NCBI GenBank assembly: GCA_026874595.1
Contig: CM049308.1
Coordinates: forward strand, 51,967,624-52,031,623
DNA: 64,000 nt
Origin: Sipunculus nudus
Lineage: Eukaryota > Annelida > Sipuncula > Golfingiida > Sipunculidae
Direction of reading: 5' to 3'
In this document: positions 2,581 through 64,000 of the stretch, one piece after another
Numbering within the stretch: position 1 is the stretch's first letter
How the letters are laid out: each line of letters begins with the position of its first letter
Position numbers and translations under genes: made by a program
The notes under the pieces: model-generated
The model's database searches: none
What the model was told of the DNA's origin: nothing
What the model saw: only the letters and a program-made list of their open reading frames with translations

Positions 2581-3245
2581 AAGTGACCCAGGGGTCATGA
2601 CGCTCAGCTGACCAGGAAGACATTGACAAAAGTAATTTTATCATATGAATGTCAAATTTGAATGAAATACTTTTTCCAAACTTGACCTTTTGTATAAAAT
2701 CATCCAATACTCATTGGGGTACTATGGAGCTCTGTAGTATGAAGGATATGGGTAACAGACACCTATTTTCAAGGTTTACAAGATGACTTTTCAGGGGTCT
2801 CCCAGCATGTCAAAAAATAAAATTCTAGGTCCAGTTATTATGATTTGTGCCCTGTTTACAGATGACCAAATGTTTAAAGATCACAAAAGTAGAGAATAAA
2901 AATCGTAAAAAATAATTAAAATATAGGTGGCGCCACCAATCTCCAGAAATTGATGAAACACTCCATGAACAATATCCATGCAAAGAATCATGGTGATTAA
3001 TGCATTAGTTCAGATACTTGAGCTTTTGTATTAAATTTTGCATTATTCTGGGGGGTACTTCAGAACCCCATAGCTCGAAGAATATAGGTCACAGTGACCT
3101 AATTTCAGGTTTACAAGGAGAATTTCCATAGACCTCCCAGGATTTAAAGTAAGAAGATTCCCGGTCTAGCGGTTACGATTTGTGCCCTGTTAACAGACAG
3201 ACGCCTGGATGGCCAGACGGATGACGGACAAAAGGTGATCCCTAC

Positions 3246-3278
3246 AGCTCAGATGACTTTCAGTCAACTGAGCTAAAA
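3246..3278 (+). repeat. Internal pearl-like 3' terminal hairpin
   Basis: AGCTCAGATGACT, TTC loop, then AGTCAACTGAGCT and AAAA, preceded by CAGACGGATGACGGACA. It is a full 3' end lying inside the composite block, with another core unit starting directly after it. Confidence 0.75.
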
Positions 3279-3762
3279 ATTGAAAAAATACAGGTGGCGC
3301 CACCAGAATGCAGAAACTGATGAAACATTTCATGATCAATATCCATGCAAAGAATCATAGTGATCAATATAATAATTGTTCAGATACTTAGCTTTTGTAT
3401 CAAATTTTCCATTATTCTGGGGGGTACTTCGGAGCCCCATAGCTCAGAGGTTATGGGTAACAGAGACCTAATTTCAAGTTTTTAAGGAAACTTTTCATGG
3501 GCCTCTCAGCATGTCAAGAGAGAAGATTCTAGGTCCAGTTGTTACGATTTGTGCCTAGTTTACCGATGACCGCATCTTATTAGGTCTCAAAAATAGAGAA
3601 AAAAATTAGTAAAAATAAAAAAAATACAGGTGGCGCCACCATAGTGCAGAAACTGATGACACATTCCATGATCAATATCCATGCAAAGAATCATGGTGAT
3701 CACTGCAATAGTTGTTTAGATACTTGAGCTTTTGTATCAAATTGTCCATTATTCTGAGGGAT

Positions 3763-3795
3763 ACTTCAGATGACTTACAGTCAGCTGAGCTAAAA
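3763..3795 (+). repeat. Second internal 3' end, fused to a core unit
   Basis: TTCAGATGACTTACAGTCAGCTGAGC followed by TAAAA. The left hairpin arm is joined directly to a core GGATACTTCAGA stretch, without the usual microsatellite, suggesting a deletion or template switch between core and terminus. Confidence 0.6.
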
Positions 3796-5858
3796 ACACT
3801 TAATGTTCAATATCCATGCAAAGAATCATGATGATCTCCGTATTAGTTCAGATTCTTCAGCTTTTGTATCAAATTGTCCATTATTCTGAGGGATACTTCA
3901 GAGTCCTATAGCTTGAAGGATATGGGTAACAGAGACCTAATTTCAAGTTTCCACAGGCACTCTTCATGGGCCTCCATGCATGACAAGAATGAAGTTTCTA
4001 GGTCCAGTTGTTGCAATTTGTACCCTCTTGATAGATAACATAGGTGGCGCCACCAGTCTGCAGGAACTGATGGAACATCTCATAATCAATATGTATGCCA
4101 AAAATCATGACCATCAGTGATGTAGTCATTGAGATATTGAAGTTTTTGTATGAAATTTTTGACTACTCTGGGGGGGTACTTTGGGGCCCCATAGCTCGAA
4201 GGATATGGGTAACAGAGACCTAATTTCTGGTTTCCATGGAGACTTTTCATAGGTCTTCTAGTGTGTTGAGAATGAAGATTCTAGGTCCAGTCGTTACTAT
4301 TTGTGCCATGCTAACAGATGACAGCATCCTTAAAGGTCTCAAAAATAGAGGAAAAAATCGTAAAACATCTAACGATACAGGTGGCGCCACCAGTCTGCAG
4401 GAACAGATGACACATCTCATGATCAATAGTTATGCCACAAATCATGACCATCATTCAAGTAGTTAATGAGATATTGAAGTTTTTCATAAATTTTTTACTT
4501 TTCTTGGGGGTACTTTAGGGCTCCATAGCTCGAAGAATATGGGTAACAGAGACCTAATTTTGATTTCCATGGAGACTTTTCATAGGTCTCTCAGTGTGTC
4601 GAGAATGAAGATTCTAGGTCCAGTCGTTATGATTTGTGCCACGTTAACAGATGACAGCATCCTTAAAGGTCTCAAAAATAGAGGAAAAAATCGTAAAAAA
4701 TCAAACAATACAGGTGGCGCCACAAGTCTGCAGGAACTGATGGAACATTTCATAATCAATATGTATGCCAAAAATCATGACCATCAGTGATGTTGTTATT
4801 GAGATATTGAAGTTTTTGTATGAAATTTTTGACTACTCTGGGGGGGGGGGGTACTTTGGGGCCCCATAGCTCAAAGGATATGGTTAACAGAGACCTAATT
4901 TCTGGTTCCCAAGGATATTTTTCATAGACCTCTCAGTGTGTCAAGAATGAAGATTCTAGGTCCAGTCGTTACGATTTGTGCTATGCTAACAGATGACAGC
5001 ATCCTTAAAGGTCTCAAAAATAGAGGAAAAATCGTAAAAAATCGAACAATAAAGGTGGCACCACAAGTCTGCAGGAAGTGATGACACATCTCATGATCAA
5101 TAGTTATGCCACAAATCATGACCATCAATCAAGTAGTTAATGAGATATTGAAGTTTTTGTATGAAATTTTTTACTTTTCTTGGGGGTACTTTGGGGCTCC
5201 ATAGCTCAAAGAATATGGGTAACAGAGACCTAATTTCTGGTTTCCATGGAGACTTTTCATAGGTCTCTCAGTGTGTCAAGAATGAAGATTCAAGGTCCAG
5301 TCTTCACGATTTGTGCCTTGTTAACAGATGTTTACATTTTGAAAGGTCTCAAAAATAGAGAAAAAAATTCGTAAAAAATTGAACGATACAGGTGGCGCCA
5401 CCAGTCTGCAGGAACTGATAGAACATCTCATGATCAATATGTATGACAAAAATCATGACCATCAGTCAAGTATTTAATGAGATATTGAAATTTTTGTTTG
5501 AAATTTTTTACTTTTCTGGGGGGTAGTTTGGGGCCCCATAGCTGGAAGGATATGGGTAACAGAGACCTAATTTCTGGTTTCCATGGAGACTTTTCATAGG
5601 TCTCTCAGTGTGTCGAGAATGAAGATTCTAAGCCAGTCATTACGATTTGTGCCTTGTTAACAGTTGTTCACATTTTTAAAGGTCTCAAAAATAGAGAAAA
5701 AAAATTAGGATGTCAAGTAAGAAGATTCCAGTTCTAGCGGTTACGATTTGTGCCTGGTTAACGGACAGACAGACAGACAGACAGACGGACAGACAGACGG
5801 ACGACGGACAAAGAGTGATCGCTATAGCTCAGATGACTTTCAGTCAGCTGAGCTAAAA

Positions 5859-7887: not shown

Positions 7888-8220
7888 GTTGTTGTGGGTT
7901 CACCGCGGGTACGGATTTAGGCCGGGAACATCTCACCACTGCCCATATCGGCAATTTTGGCACAAGTGAATCATGTTGCGGGTTAATCGTTGGGACGAGT
8001 TGTTGTGGGTTAACCGCGGGGACGAATTTAGACCGGGAACATCTCACCACTGCCCATATCGGCAATTTTGGCACAAGTGAATCATGTTGCGGGTTAATCG
8101 TTGGGACGAGTTGTTGTGGGTTAACCGCGGGGACGAATTTAGACCGGGAACATCTCACCACTGCCCATATCGGCAATTTTGGCACAAGTGAATCATGTTG
8201 CGCGTTATTCGTTGGGACGA
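7888..8220 (+). repeat. 111-bp minisatellite, three units
   Basis: Units begin at 7888, 7999 and 8110, each starting GTTGTTGTGGGTT and containing CGGGAACATCTCACCACTGC and CATATCGGCAATTTTGG. The period of 111 bp is a multiple of three, so the minus strand stays open across it (7868-8263), giving a 37-residue repeat (LVPKLPIWAVVRCSR core). No start context or homology supports expression. Units 2 and 3 are almost identical, unit 1 slightly diverged. Confidence 0.9.
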
Positions 8221-32969: not shown

Positions 32970-33102
32970 GAAACAATCTTGTGTTGCTTTGCAAAAGATA
33001 AAATAAGAGAGGTACTGAATCAAGTCAACAGGCATAGACAGTGAAAACAAAGTGAGAAAGCGATGTCTCTGCATGTTTTAAGAAGGGCTCTCGAATGCAT
33101 AA

Positions 33103-33310
33103 AGCTGCGTGTCCACTTATGCGGCACGGATACGGATGGGGATGCGGACGCGTTTTTAATCGCGCATATGGAATAATGGAGTGTGTCCACTTATGCGGTG
33201 CGGAGTGCGTGCGACGTGCGGAAACGTATACGTTTTTTGAAAACCGGACAATGTAGCCACGGGTACGGAAACGTATGCGGAAACGCACAAGTGGACACAG
33301 AACTTGTCGT
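33103..33310. repeat. Left terminal and subterminal inverted repeats of the Harbinger element
   Basis: GC-rich end: AGCTGCGTGTCCACTTATGC at the tip, GTGTCCACTTATGCGG again at about 33183, AAACGTATACG / AAACGTATGCGG and CACAAGTGGACAC inwards. The flank beyond 33100 is AT-rich. The open frames here (33025-33381 -, 33183-33449 +) are shadows of the repeat. Confidence 0.85.
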
Positions 33311-33412
33311 ACGGAAATTTCCACTGATGACATCAGCTCACTTTTCATACCAGGTGATGCGATCATTTCATGGTAAATCACGTGTAGTCACCGTGCATCA
33401 GAGTGCATTAAA

Positions 33413-36055
33413 ATGCCCAGACTGGACAAAGAAGTTTCTGAAAAGTTGATCGAACAAGTGCGCGACCACAGATGTCTGTAGGATCCGATCAGCGCCGAGT
33501 ACAAGGACGCTCAGCTAGTTTTCAACGTATGGAATAGCATAGCAAAGGCTATGAGGGATCCTGCTGTGGCTGGTGAGTGACTGTTTCTGGATGTAAAATT
33601 AATGACAAGACTTTTCGCTCTGTTAAACATGTGTAGTTTGTAAAAAAATCTTTTGTTTTCAAGACATGAGCTCAGAGTGAGATATCATCATTAATGATTG
33701 TGTATTTACTACAGCAGTGAATAAAAATGACAGAATTTATTAAATACTCAGTTAAATTAGATTAAGACTTGGTGATTGATTATTTTATACAAGATTAGGT
33801 CTAAACTGAAGTTGTAGGAGAACTACAATATTAAACAAATTGTCGCTACATGTTATTCACGTGTTATATTGCTTGCAGGTCTGGACTGGAAGAAGAAATG
33901 GCGCAATTTACGAGACATTTACATGACAAAGAGAAAACAGGTTAGAACAACCAAATGTGGACAAAGTGCCCGAAGAGCAAGGAAGTGGATATATTTTGAC
34001 AGCATGTGTTTCCTCGACCAATACACAGAAGAACAATGGTAATTAGACTTAACATTTAATGCATGAATATTTCAAATATGTCAAACTCTTACTCTATATT
34101 TTGAAATATTTATGATTGGCTCGTCTGGCTTTTCCACACTGTTCTATGACTTTTTTTTTAAATACTGTTCCAGCACTGAAACTATTGTCCCGCAGGACGA
34201 AACAGAGAGTGAAGAAGAAACTGGTCTCGAGGGCTCATAGGATGAACCTTATATGTCATAAAGGTTTGAACAAATTAATATAAATTACATTATTTGAAGA
34301 AAACATTTGTAGGGTTCTGTTATTTAAATAAAAATCCAGTTTAAAAGTTAAAAAAGACAGACTTAACGCGTGTTAGCTCATAAAACATATCAAAATTTAG
34401 TTTTCAAACTGTCCCCTACGAACATGTCTTTCATGCCTGGATGCAGGTGCTACATCATTGAAGTATTCCTTGAAAATTGCTCTGATTTGCTGTGCATTCT
34501 GTGCTCCTCCATAACCAACGCCGGGAAATCTGCGAAGCCCCTGAGTTGGTTCTGCTCCTGCATGTTGTAGCAATGAGGATATCTGAGAAGGCGTTGATTG
34601 CGATTGAAGAAAATTATGCAGCACACAAGTTGCCTTCACTACGTCATTTGCGACCCCAGTTCCAACTGCAAGTTTTGTGTGAAACACTCTCCACCGAACA
34701 GCCAGAACACCGAACGCGTTTTCTACGATCCTTCTTGCCCCGGACAGCCTGTAATTGAATACTTGCTCATCATAGGGACATCCCCTTCCAGGGTATGGTC
34801 TCATGATATGGCGCTGTAAGGGGAAGGCCTCATCCCCTATAACCACACAAGGAACTCATCATCGGGAAAGTTTAACTTTTCCGTTACTATGGCTTTTCCG
34901 AGATTTGAATTTCCGAATATGCCCCCGTCGCTGTTCCGACCGTAAGACCCAACATCAATCGCAATAAATTTCAAATCTGCGTCCACCAGTGCCATGAGGA
35001 CTATTGAGAATGTTCCCTTATAATTAAAATACTGGGACCCTGTGTTGTTTGGGCACTTTATGACCACATGCTTCCCATCAAGAGCAGCTAAGCAGTGAGG
35101 AAACTGCCATTTATCTTTAAAATTTGCGGCTATCGATTTCCATTCTTCTGTTGTTGTTGGTAATTTCATGTAGATGGGTACTAATGTTTGCCACAAAAGC
35201 TGACACACTTCTCGCACAATATTGCTTACGGTCTTCACTCCCAGCTGGTAGGCAAAGGCTAGAGAATGGAAGGACTCCTCTGTGGCCAAGAACCTGTATA
35301 AGTAATACAGGAGCATATTAATGAAAATAACTTAAAATTATATAATTACATAATCGCAATTAAAACAGTGGTTAGATAGTGGCAAAGTAAATTTTCTATG
35401 GGTATTTCAAGTATATAGGATTCAAAGGTTTGCTTGTAAGGTTGTATGTGTCACTGTATATTTTACCTAATTTATTTTAAAACATTCTTAAATTTTCAGA
35501 TCAATGACACCGTCTGTTGTGCAGCAATCTTCCTCAGTCAGTGATTTGCCTTCATTTGTGGATATGCAAGGGCCCTCAAAAACAACAAAAGCACATAAGA
35601 GGAAAGCAAACTCAAAGGAATCTTCAGATTCAACAAGCTCCATGGAGAGAGCTCTGGCCGATCTAATCGTGCAGCACAGGAACGTCGCAGGGAAGATGCT
35701 TGAAGGTGTTGATGTAACAAGGATCAAGTCAGCCGAAGAACTGTATTTTGAAAGCGCTGCTCAGCGTATGGACCGATTGCCAGAAAAGACAAAGTCAGAT
35801 TTGATGTTCCAAATCTCCTCCTTATTATTTAATGCAGAGAACACTGATATTGCCCCAATGCCTGTCCCCCCTTTACCTACACCAAACTCCCCAGTTTCTT
35901 CGTTTTCTTCAGCACCAGGACCATCAGTGGAACCGCCTCAATGGACCTGCCCCACACCTGCTACGGATCGTGTACACAGTACACACAGCATGGACTTTGG
36001 CAGAGAAACGTCCATCATTGCACAAGCTATGAATTTGGCCAGTAATATGTCGTAA
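33413..36055 (+). pseudogene. Harbinger partner gene: MADF-BESS protein, four exons, with in-frame stops
   Basis: Exon 1 33413-33572 (GCTG/GTGAGT donor), exon 2 33879-34038, exon 3 34174-34263, exon 4 35500-36055, all with AG/GT boundaries and compatible phases. Exons 1-2 form a MADF domain, a Myb/SANT relative: KLIEQVRDHRCL, YKDAQLVFNVWNSIAKAM, GLDWKKKWRNLRDIYMTKRK, ARKWIYFDSMCFLDQY. Exon 4 has a basic stretch and a BESS-like helix pair, RMDRLPEKTKSDLMFQISSL, then a Pro/Ser-rich tail. Such proteins bind element ends and cooperate with the transposase. Breaks: the conserved Trp after HRCL is TAG, and exon 3 ends with two in-frame stops (34238 and the TAA just before its donor), unless its true donor differs. 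The transposase catalytic exon lies in intron 3 on the other strand. Confidence 0.8.
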
Positions 36056-36816
36056 TATCTGGACATTTGGAACATCATTTATGATGCCTTTTGGAGTACA
36101 CCGTAATTAAATTATTGTTATTACGTTTTCTTAAATTAAAACTAGAGTATCCCATAAGTGTATAAATTATTAGTTGATACATTTGGGGTTTTGAATGTTA
36201 TTATACTGATAATAGGTTGTAATATATTATTTTGGGATTTGGATAACAGTGTAATTAAATTATTGTAATTATTTTTTTTAAATAGTTGATACATTTGGCG
36301 TTTTGAATGTTAATTTACTGTCAATAGGTTGTTATATATCATTTAAGGAGCTAAAACTGTTAACTGAGATTTGGACAGTTTAAAAACCACATACACAAGC
36401 TTGGACAAAGAGTGTTTTGCTTTATTATGTTTTATTTTTTGTAATATCCGGTATTATACCGCTGGGTTTTTTTAATAAATAAAGACGTACCTCAAGCACA
36501 CAGCTAATCTTTGTCTTGGGCAGATAACTTTTCTAAATCGAGAGTACTTCACCAAGTGTTCCTCGACCATTGACAGGACAAAACCAAACTGCTCTCTGTC
36601 CAGTCTCATGTACTGTTGGAATCTCTCTAAATCAGATTCCAGCTCCTGTATCAGATGGTATGCCCCTTGTTCATATCTCCTCTTATTGATAGCGTGCACC
36701 CACCAACGGTGTTTTCTTTTGTTCCTTTTTTTTGTTTTCACTACTATATACGCCCCTGTAATTATGATAAGCTGTTCCTGATGGTGAAGAAGCTGTGAGG
36801 ATGTGCTGAGTGGCAT
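34397..36816 (-). pseudogene. PIF/Harbinger (HARBI1-like) DDE transposase, two exons, one 2-bp frameshift
   Basis: Exon 1 36816 to 36491, intron 36490-35294 (GTACGT...ACAG), exon 2 35293 to 34397; phases join CLR to FLATEE, a conserved HARBI1 boundary. Residues about 40-108 hold the N-terminal helical part (RRYEQGAYHLIQELESDLER, EEHLVKYSRFRKVI). In exon 2 the DDE nuclease is complete by motif: D near 180 in LAALDGKHVVIK, D near 230 in GSYGRNSDGGIF, and E near 298 in ARRIVENAFGVLAVRWRVF. It would cut and join transposon ends. The only visible lesion is an extra TG at about 34846 (GTGTGG for GTGG) before GDEAFPL, causing an early stop. About 407 residues if read through, normal for the family. 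The intron holds exon 4 of the MADF gene on the opposite strand. Confidence 0.9.
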
Positions 36817-36846
36817 TATGGAGAAGCGAAAGAACGAAAAACGCAC

Positions 36847-36909
36847 CAATGGACGCACACAAAAACGCATCCGTATCCGCAACGCATCCGTACAAGTGGA
36901 CACGCGGCT
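36847..36909. repeat. Right terminal inverted repeat of the Harbinger element
   Basis: CGCATCCGTATCCGC, CGCATCCGTAC and AAGTGGACACGCGGCT at the tip, mirroring the left end, followed by TAA. Confidence 0.85.
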
Positions 36910-36912
36910 TAA

Positions 36913-62659: not shown

Positions 62660-64000
62660 TGTCAAAGTGAAAGAAAATAATCCATAGTTTGTGAAGAAAG
62701 AACCAATATTAATAAAGTTCTAAAGAAAATAAGATTTTGATATATTTTGATCACCTTGACCTTGACCTTTGACTTATTTGAATAATAAACATAGGACTTC
62801 CAGATATCAACACGATTTATGACAAGTGTATTTACAAAACGATTCCTGCAAAACTGTGGCCAGTAGAATGCTACATGTGAGACGAAAGAACCAGGAAGCA
62901 GGCGAAATTGAGGACAACTGACAAACAGACAACATACTGACAAACTGACCCAAGATTGTGAACAGATGACTTAATCATGTTATGGAGAAACCTCAGAGGA
63001 AGATAATAAGCTATAGTTTATGTAAATGAGGTTTATAGTTTTGGAGATATGGCCAAAAAATGATATGTTGTGCAAGTTTGAGTGCACCGCCCCCTAGCGG
63101 CCAATTCTGGAAAATGAAAAATCTGTTTCGAGATATTAGTGTAAGACATAAGATGTAATAGTTTTAAAAGGATTCTTTCAAAACTGTGGCCTGTAGAATG
63201 CTATATGTGAGACGCAAGAACCGGCAAGCAAGCGGATTTGAGGACAACTGAGAAACAGACGGACACACAGACAAAGTGACTCAAGATTGAGACCAAATGA
63301 ATACACCAGGTTTTTGGAAAGACCCAGAGGAAGAACATAAGCTATAGTTTATGTAAATGAGGTTTATAGTTTTGGAGATATGGCCAAAAAATGATATGTT
63401 GTGCAAGTTTGAGTGCACCGCCCCCTAGCGGCCAATTCTGGAAAATGAAAAATCTGTTTCGAGAAATTAGTGTAAGACATAAGATGTAATAGTTTTAAAA
63501 GGATTCTTTCAAAACTGGCCTGTAGAATGCTATATGTGAGACGCAAGAACCGGCAAGCAAGCGAATTTGAGGACAACTGAGAAACAGACGGACACACAGA
63601 CAAAGTGACTCAAGATTGAGACCAAATGAATACACCAGGTCTTTGAAAAGACCCAGAGGAAGAAAATAAGCTATAGTTTTTGTAATTGAGGCTTACAGTT
63701 TTGGAGATATGGCCAAAACATTGTATGTTTGGGAGGTTTGCATACAGCGCCCCCTAGCGGCCGCATTCAGAAAATGGAAAAACAATTTCGAGATAATAGA
63801 GTAGGACTTACCATATGTCAGTTTCAAAAAGATTCCAGCAAAACTGTGGCCTCCAGGGCAAGACTACTGAAATCTCGAAATATCTCGTTTGACGAGAAAT
63901 TATACAAGATATCACGAGACTTATAAAAGAATCTTGCAGTACTTGTTGAATGCTACCTGATGCAAAAAACTAGACCTCTCTAGCTGTAAAACTGCCAAAG
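62660..64000 (+). repeat. ~330-bp tandem array, about four units
   Basis: CCCCTAGCGG recurs at 63091, 63422 and 63751 (331 and 329 bp apart); CTGTGGCC(A/T)GTAGAATGCTA or close variants recur near 62855, 63187, 63515 and 63845. Units include TTTTGGAGATATGGCCAAAA and GACGGACACACAGACAAAG-type ends. The first unit shares 62660-62830 with 44190-44375. The array continues past the window edge. Open frames here are repeat-derived. Confidence 0.9.

Follow-up and report, generated by a model that had tools for sequence, protein, structure and literature searches.

The locus examined here raises the question whether two genes of a single transposon can be locked through each other's introns, and whether such a layout is an inherited state or an accident of one copy. 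The window, which is the whole stretch of 64,000 nt of Sipunculus nudus DNA that was analysed, contains a PIF/Harbinger element at 33103-36909 with both ends present, a TAA on either side and terminal inverted repeats (TIRs) of about 14 bp (Table 1). The TIR/TSD scan, which looks for these repeats together with the target-site duplication (TSD), gave agreement at 13 of 14 bases, and the limits that had been proposed for the element were exact. A longer imperfect inverted repeat, with 76% identity, links 33102-33146 to 36866-36910. On the minus strand the element carries a two-exon DDE transposase gene and on the plus strand a four-exon MADF gene. It is very probably a decayed two-gene PIF/Harbinger element from a clade in which the transposase and MADF genes are interdigitated on opposite strands, a judgement that concerns the anatomy and its inheritance in one clade only.

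Table 1. Features of the PIF/Harbinger element and its flanks (window coordinates; splicing predicted)
Feature	Position	Strand	Description and evidence
Target-site duplication, left	33100..33102	.	TAA; direct sequence and TIR/TSD scan
Terminal inverted repeat, left	33103..33116	+	AGCTGCGTGTCCAC; TIR/TSD scan
MADF exon 1	33413..33572	+	N-terminal half of MADF domain; codon 23 is an in-frame stop; homologous exons in L013, L014, F2, F8
MADF exon 2	33879..34038	+	C-terminal half of MADF domain; acceptor tgcag|GTC, donor ATG|gtaatt; Pfam match
MADF exon 3	34174..34263	+	Acidic linker; two in-frame stops in window copy; donor AAG|gtttga
MADF intron 3	34264..35499	+	1236 nt; transposase catalytic exon inside, antisense
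Transposase exon 2	34397..35293	-	DDE catalytic domain, 897 nt; frame break near 34850; stop at 34397
Transposase intron	35294..36490	-	1197 nt; MADF exon 4 inside, antisense; donor GAG|gtacgt, acceptor tatacag|GTT, phase 2
MADF exon 4	35500..36055	+	Last exon, 556 nt, BESS-like C-terminal part, 184 aa open
Transposase exon 1	36491..36816	-	tblastn to L013 E 1.9e-29, to L014 E 1.7e-33
Terminal inverted repeat, right	36896..36909	-	Reverse complement AGCCGCGTGTCCAC; TIR/TSD scan
Target-site duplication, right	36910..36912	.	TAA; direct sequence and TIR/TSD scan

The MADF gene is predicted to contain three GT-AG introns with exon-end phases 1, 2 and 2, and the transposase gene a single GT-AG intron of phase 2. 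As shown in Table 1, the 1.2-kb transposase intron holds the last MADF exon, and the last MADF intron holds the catalytic exon of the transposase, which takes up 73% of it; both halves of the original prediction were confirmed on this point. The four splice sites concerned were readable as GT-AG sites, as had also been claimed, and the joined frames of the window copy stay in phase across all four predicted introns, with the same phases recurring in the relatives L013, F2 and F8 described below. Pfam matched MADF_DNA_bdg at 33881-34042 (E 1.1e-6) and DDE_Tnp_4 on two pieces of transposase exon 2 (E 7.4e-12 and 3.3e-13). The motifs GDEAF and ARRIVE presumably hold the second D and the E of the DDE transposase.

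The window copy is dead and able to make neither protein. Its MADF model has in-frame stops at codons 23, 129 and 136, once in exon 1 and twice in exon 3, and its transposase frame is broken (Table 1); an autonomous element would have both genes open, and this copy has neither. The junction between exons 3 and 4 is in phase only beyond the two stops of exon 3, so that the window by itself is insufficient to assign exon 4 to the MADF gene. In L013, F2 and F8 the corresponding exon 3 is stop-free.

Relatives of the interlocked kind were sought in one genome, that of the window itself (1.43 Gb, 153 contigs). A protein search with the catalytic exon gave at least 150 matches, the best 30 of which were excised with 1.5-kb flanks. 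Of these 30 loci, 11 (window counted) have an antisense homologue of exon 4 upstream of the catalytic exon; in 16 the intron seems to be absent, the first part of the transposase apparently running straight into the second. In two further loci (L027 and L031) the intron is short and nothing homologous to exon 4 lies upstream, and one (L035, with its longer stretch L054) has a long intron and no detectable exon 4. At the DNA level, the catalytic exon matched the window at 100%, C6 and C15 at 65% and C11 at 70% over 123 nt. A DNA search with exon 4 gave one decayed relative, on C7, and a protein search with the window exon 4 gave five matches at four places including the window. The C7 relative (L048, C7:44977800-44987700) has 73% DNA identity and several stops, and no transposase or MADF match was found in the 9.9 kb around it.

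Eight loci belonging to seven families have the catalytic exon, exon 4 and transposase exon 1 in this order: the window; C6 and C15; C2:33.1; C8:24.1; C13:52.05; C12:42.5; and C16:37.6. In longer stretches, the MADF exons followed by these three exons were read in the window, L013, L014, F2 and F8, and the same order was read in F13 from MADF exon 2 onward; L052 and L053 have the last three exons in order, with no secure MADF exon found there. For L064 and for two of the three copies of F2, the stretch followed ends short of transposase exon 1. Exon 4 has homologues at the equivalent place in L013, L014, L025/L052, L046/L053 and others. The interlocked anatomy that had been described from a single Harbinger element thus recurs, in order, strands and phases, in several families that have diverged within this genome. 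For the window, L013, F2 and F8, the catalytic exons are 50-63% identical and the fourth MADF exons 22-32%. L013 shares the phases of the window but is no longer intact, its MADF exon 1 being interrupted by one stop and its transposase by more than one; further relatives are also broken. Another exon-4 homologue was noted at C10:6100227-6101486, on the strand opposite a nearby catalytic-exon fragment and in the same order.

Two families retain both genes in open form. The C2:33.1 Mb copy of F2 has stop-free frames for a MADF protein of 318 aa and a transposase of 413 aa, and F8 (C8:24.1 Mb) for proteins of 433 aa and 426 aa, respectively. Their intron phases, 1, 2 and 2 in the MADF gene and 2 in the transposase gene, equal those of the window. 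Pfam found MADF (E 1.5e-14) and the whole DDE_Tnp_4 domain (E 8.7e-33) in F2, and MADF (E 4.9e-15) in F8. Both protein components of PIF/Harbinger elements were recovered, the DDE_Tnp_4 transposase in pieces in the window and whole in F2, and the MADF_DNA_bdg second gene in window exon 2, F2 and F8. F2 comprises three copies (C2, C10 and C16), which are 98.5-99.5% identical over the main aligned 3.0-3.4 kb, with shorter aligned pieces at 92-95%; exon 4 is open in two of the three and frame-shifted in the C16 copy. Most of MADF intron 3 is occupied by the catalytic exon (88% in F2, 89% in F8 and 84% in L013), and the two back-to-back acceptors are separated by 96 nt in F2, 100 nt in F8, 148 nt in L013 and 206 nt in the window. 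Comparisons of dN and dS among close copies were mostly uninformative. Between F8 and L064, exon 3 gave dN 0.008 and dS 0.097 over 51 codons, which speaks for the interlocked reading, and the ratio was not low in the larger exons (0.036/0.062 in the transposase exon, 0.044/0.057 in exon 4), which speaks against it. Relative to its near relative F8, L064 has about 1.2 kb extra between the back-to-back acceptors (2910-4084, oriented).

The ends of these elements are of the same kind. The 3-bp duplication has the TWA form throughout, TAA in the window and L013 and TTA in F2 and F8, which are each bounded by TIRs. Agreement between the TIRs in the scan was 14/14 in L013 and F8 and 15/16 in F2, while a similar TIR/TSD scan found no ends in L014; a matching TIR pair with a TSD is therefore present in four of the five elements scanned. 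The decay of the window copy would fit a chance rearrangement, in which dead fragments of two elements had merely fallen into the window's order, but the open families F2 and F8 contradict this. Moreover, the antisense exon 4 is repeated in ten other loci, the phases are equal in L013, F2 and F8, and the paired ends enclose the two genes as just described, so that we give the chance origin practically no credence.

Whether exon 4 is part of the MADF gene can be judged from the same relatives. Two stops precede the donor of the window exon 3 and an ATG begins at nt 5 of the window exon 4, as would be expected if exon 4 were a separate gene that is not spliced to the MADF exons. However, a cag acceptor in the same phase opens exon 4 in the window, L013, F2 and F8, the first 30 residues of exon 4 in F2 and F8 contain no methionine, and in L027 the stretch read as MADF tail, acidic linker and BESS motif forms a single frame. 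A separate gene is accordingly very improbable. As for its domain content, the second gene had been named MADF/BESS. The MADF part of this name holds, while the BESS part finds no Pfam match in the window exon 4, in F2 or in F8, the window exon 4 having no significant Pfam match of any kind. Pfam does find BESS in the sister element L027 (E 2.3e-6), and a profile comparison aligns the exon 4 and BESS regions weakly (probability 1.7%, E 0.028). On the strength of these relatives, exon 4 may weakly be called BESS-like.

In order to place the interlocked loci, a tree was built from 30 catalytic-exon rows, with the 16 no-intron rows as outgroup; 15 of its 26 inner branches were strongly supported. 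The interlocked loci and L035 form one clade (support 99/95), and its sister is L027 plus L031 (support 99/97). At L062, which is the L031 locus, the transposase has a 304-nt intron at the same R^FLA codon and in the same phase 2, with no exon inside; MADF exon 1 and a BESS frame lie downstream of the transposase and convergent with it, and no MADF exon 2 was detected there. The single frame of L027 ends about 0.3 kb before the transposase stop. In both sister loci the MADF/BESS frame is therefore beside the transposase gene and not within it. At the no-intron locus L063, a MADF frame (E 4.3e-7) lies more than 2 kb from the transposase, in convergent orientation to it; among the 16 outgroup loci, the second gene was located in this one. 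Element ends were not established for L062, L027 and L063.

Since the sister lineage shares the transposase intron but has its genes side by side and convergent, the most economical history has the transposase intron arising first and a single later interlocking event. The evidence for this polarity comes from one sister lineage, represented by two loci with 96% agreement over 2.4 kb, and from L063; alternatively the sister lineage could have lost its MADF introns. The side-by-side genes of the sister lineage mark the interlocking as a lineage-specific state and not an artefact. The original prediction had held that copies with the two genes side by side would speak against it. Within the interlocked clade the layout is consistent with the prediction; outside it, in the same genome, the sister loci L027 and L031/L062 do have the side-by-side arrangement. 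In comparison with its relative F13, L054 has a net loss of about 1.3 kb, exon 4 included, from inside the transposase intron. Exon 4 has thus been deleted in this locus, itself decayed, and the two genes are not inseparable.

The ends of the window element also occur without its genes. Of 371 candidates 40 were scored, and 39 of these are places outside the element that match its left 180-185 bases or so. Seven of these matches were inspected, and five (L002 to L006) proved to be 283-337 bp units bounded by both ends; no resolved unit was obtained for L007 and L008. L002 and L005 have equal duplications on either side, and in L003, L004 and L006 TTA flanks one end and TAA the other. These short derivatives carrying the ends of the window element have presumably been mobilised in trans. 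L003 and L004 (C13:10.54 Mb) lie 5.2 kb apart and are equal in strand, match scores and length, possibly as the result of a local duplication.

Known Harbinger biology suggests how such an element would work. Each gene would run inward from its own end of the element, and each pre-mRNA would splice out the exon of the other gene as part of an antisense intron. The MADF protein would carry the transposase to the nucleus and to the element ends, and movement would need both proteins. A side-by-side convergent pair may have been rearranged once, leaving the catalytic exon between MADF exons 3 and 4, and the layout could have been kept because the clade continues to produce both proteins and because separating the genes is difficult. 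The weakest step is the antisense overlap of the transcripts, in which the transposase 3' UTR would probably reach MADF exon 3 and one gene may dampen its partner or supply small-RNA silencing. In four elements (the window copy, F2, F8 and L013), the first polyA-like hexamer downstream of the transposase stop falls within MADF exon 3 or past it; this is weak evidence, from which the mature mRNAs may be complementary there.

Three readings of the role of this layout were weighed. It is doubtful that the pairing of antisense transcripts (an intron of one gene with an exon of the other, and probably the 3' UTR of the transposase with MADF exon 3) acts as a self-limiting device that holds expression and copy number low. 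The coding spans of the two genes overlap by about 1.66 kb in the window copy, the hexamers lie in or past MADF exon 3, and the one copy with the window catalytic exon found by DNA search stands against the 39 other left-end matches. Nevertheless, the hexamers carry little weight, and in Harbingers it is usual for one long copy to be accompanied by many short derivatives. A broader proposal, in which the clade consists of mutually intronic gene pairs that couple expression and inheritance, with antisense limiting over-expression and with loss or exchange of a single gene made hard, seems to us similarly unlikely. We lean instead towards a layout that is real and inherited but neutral, left by one rearrangement, for example through a head-to-tail dimer with complementary exon loss, and without regulatory role. 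It is confined to one clade, the sister Harbingers and the one outgroup locus are convergent and non-overlapping, and excerpts of a Medicago study (PMC2213677) report a composite formed from two related Harbinger elements. Its retention across families at the low identities given above, and the tight packing (84-89% of MADF intron 3 in three of the four measured elements), count against a neutral layout to some degree but are compatible with it.

The two genes of the zebrafish element Harbinger3_DR are reportedly separate. This element has in common with ours a transposase and a Myb-like protein whose physical interaction is needed, according to excerpts of PMC9710019. Excerpts of PMC9179366 likewise state that Harbinger transposition requires both proteins and that the Myb-like partner serves in transposase import and end binding. 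With two-gene PIF/Harbinger elements in general, the present elements share the TWA duplication, short TIRs, DDE_Tnp_4, a MADF or Myb-like second gene and short derivatives; in contrast, two ORFs and no interlocked exons are described in the excerpted text of PMC9179366 and PMC4482050. The order of the two ORFs is variable in Medicago (PMC2213677, in excerpt). Insect PIF elements and the co-domesticated PLG/MADF pairs also combine a transposase with a MADF protein; as far as the excerpts of PMC9710019 go, these pairs adjoin, not always in equal direction, and are adjacent (e.g. 179 bp apart) or annotated as dicistronic, unlike the mutually intronic genes found here. Genes within each other's introns are known as nested or interleaved genes, the latter being called fairly common in metazoan genomes (PMC2291194, in excerpt). 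Those are host genes, whereas here the interlocked pair makes up the coding part of a mobile element and is common to its families.

No report of an interlocked gene pair within a transposon was found among the titles and abstracts searched, which were those of openly accessible papers. Of the papers PMC9179366, PMC9710019, PMC2213677 and PMC4482050, the three in which the term 'overlap' was looked for do not contain it, and the two in which 'antisense' was looked for do not contain that term. Two scans of viral contigs gave 13 and 87 pattern matches and no relative. Nested and interleaved genes are reportedly beyond what gene predictors can predict (PMC2291194, in excerpt), and such elements may therefore be called in halves. 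The open families and the side-by-side sister lineage offer a natural comparison of the antisense layout with respect to expression, small RNA and single-gene loss.

Elsewhere in the window, tandem arrays were observed at 4042-5703 (337-bp unit, 4.9 copies) and 62836-63852 (329-bp unit, 3.1 copies). A 154-bp tandem pair at 16720-17029 matches at 99%, so that this duplication is probably recent, and at 7888-8220 a 111-bp unit is repeated three times in tandem with 97% matching, both strands being open. Two separate reverse-transcriptase frames at 881-1913 (Pfam RVT_1, E 8.7e-6 and 2.8e-7) are what we take to be LINE-like sequences. Finally, a frame on the minus strand at 46721-47188 matches the Pfam SCAN domain (E 1.6e-7) and, given its setting, is perhaps a retrotransposon gag remnant.
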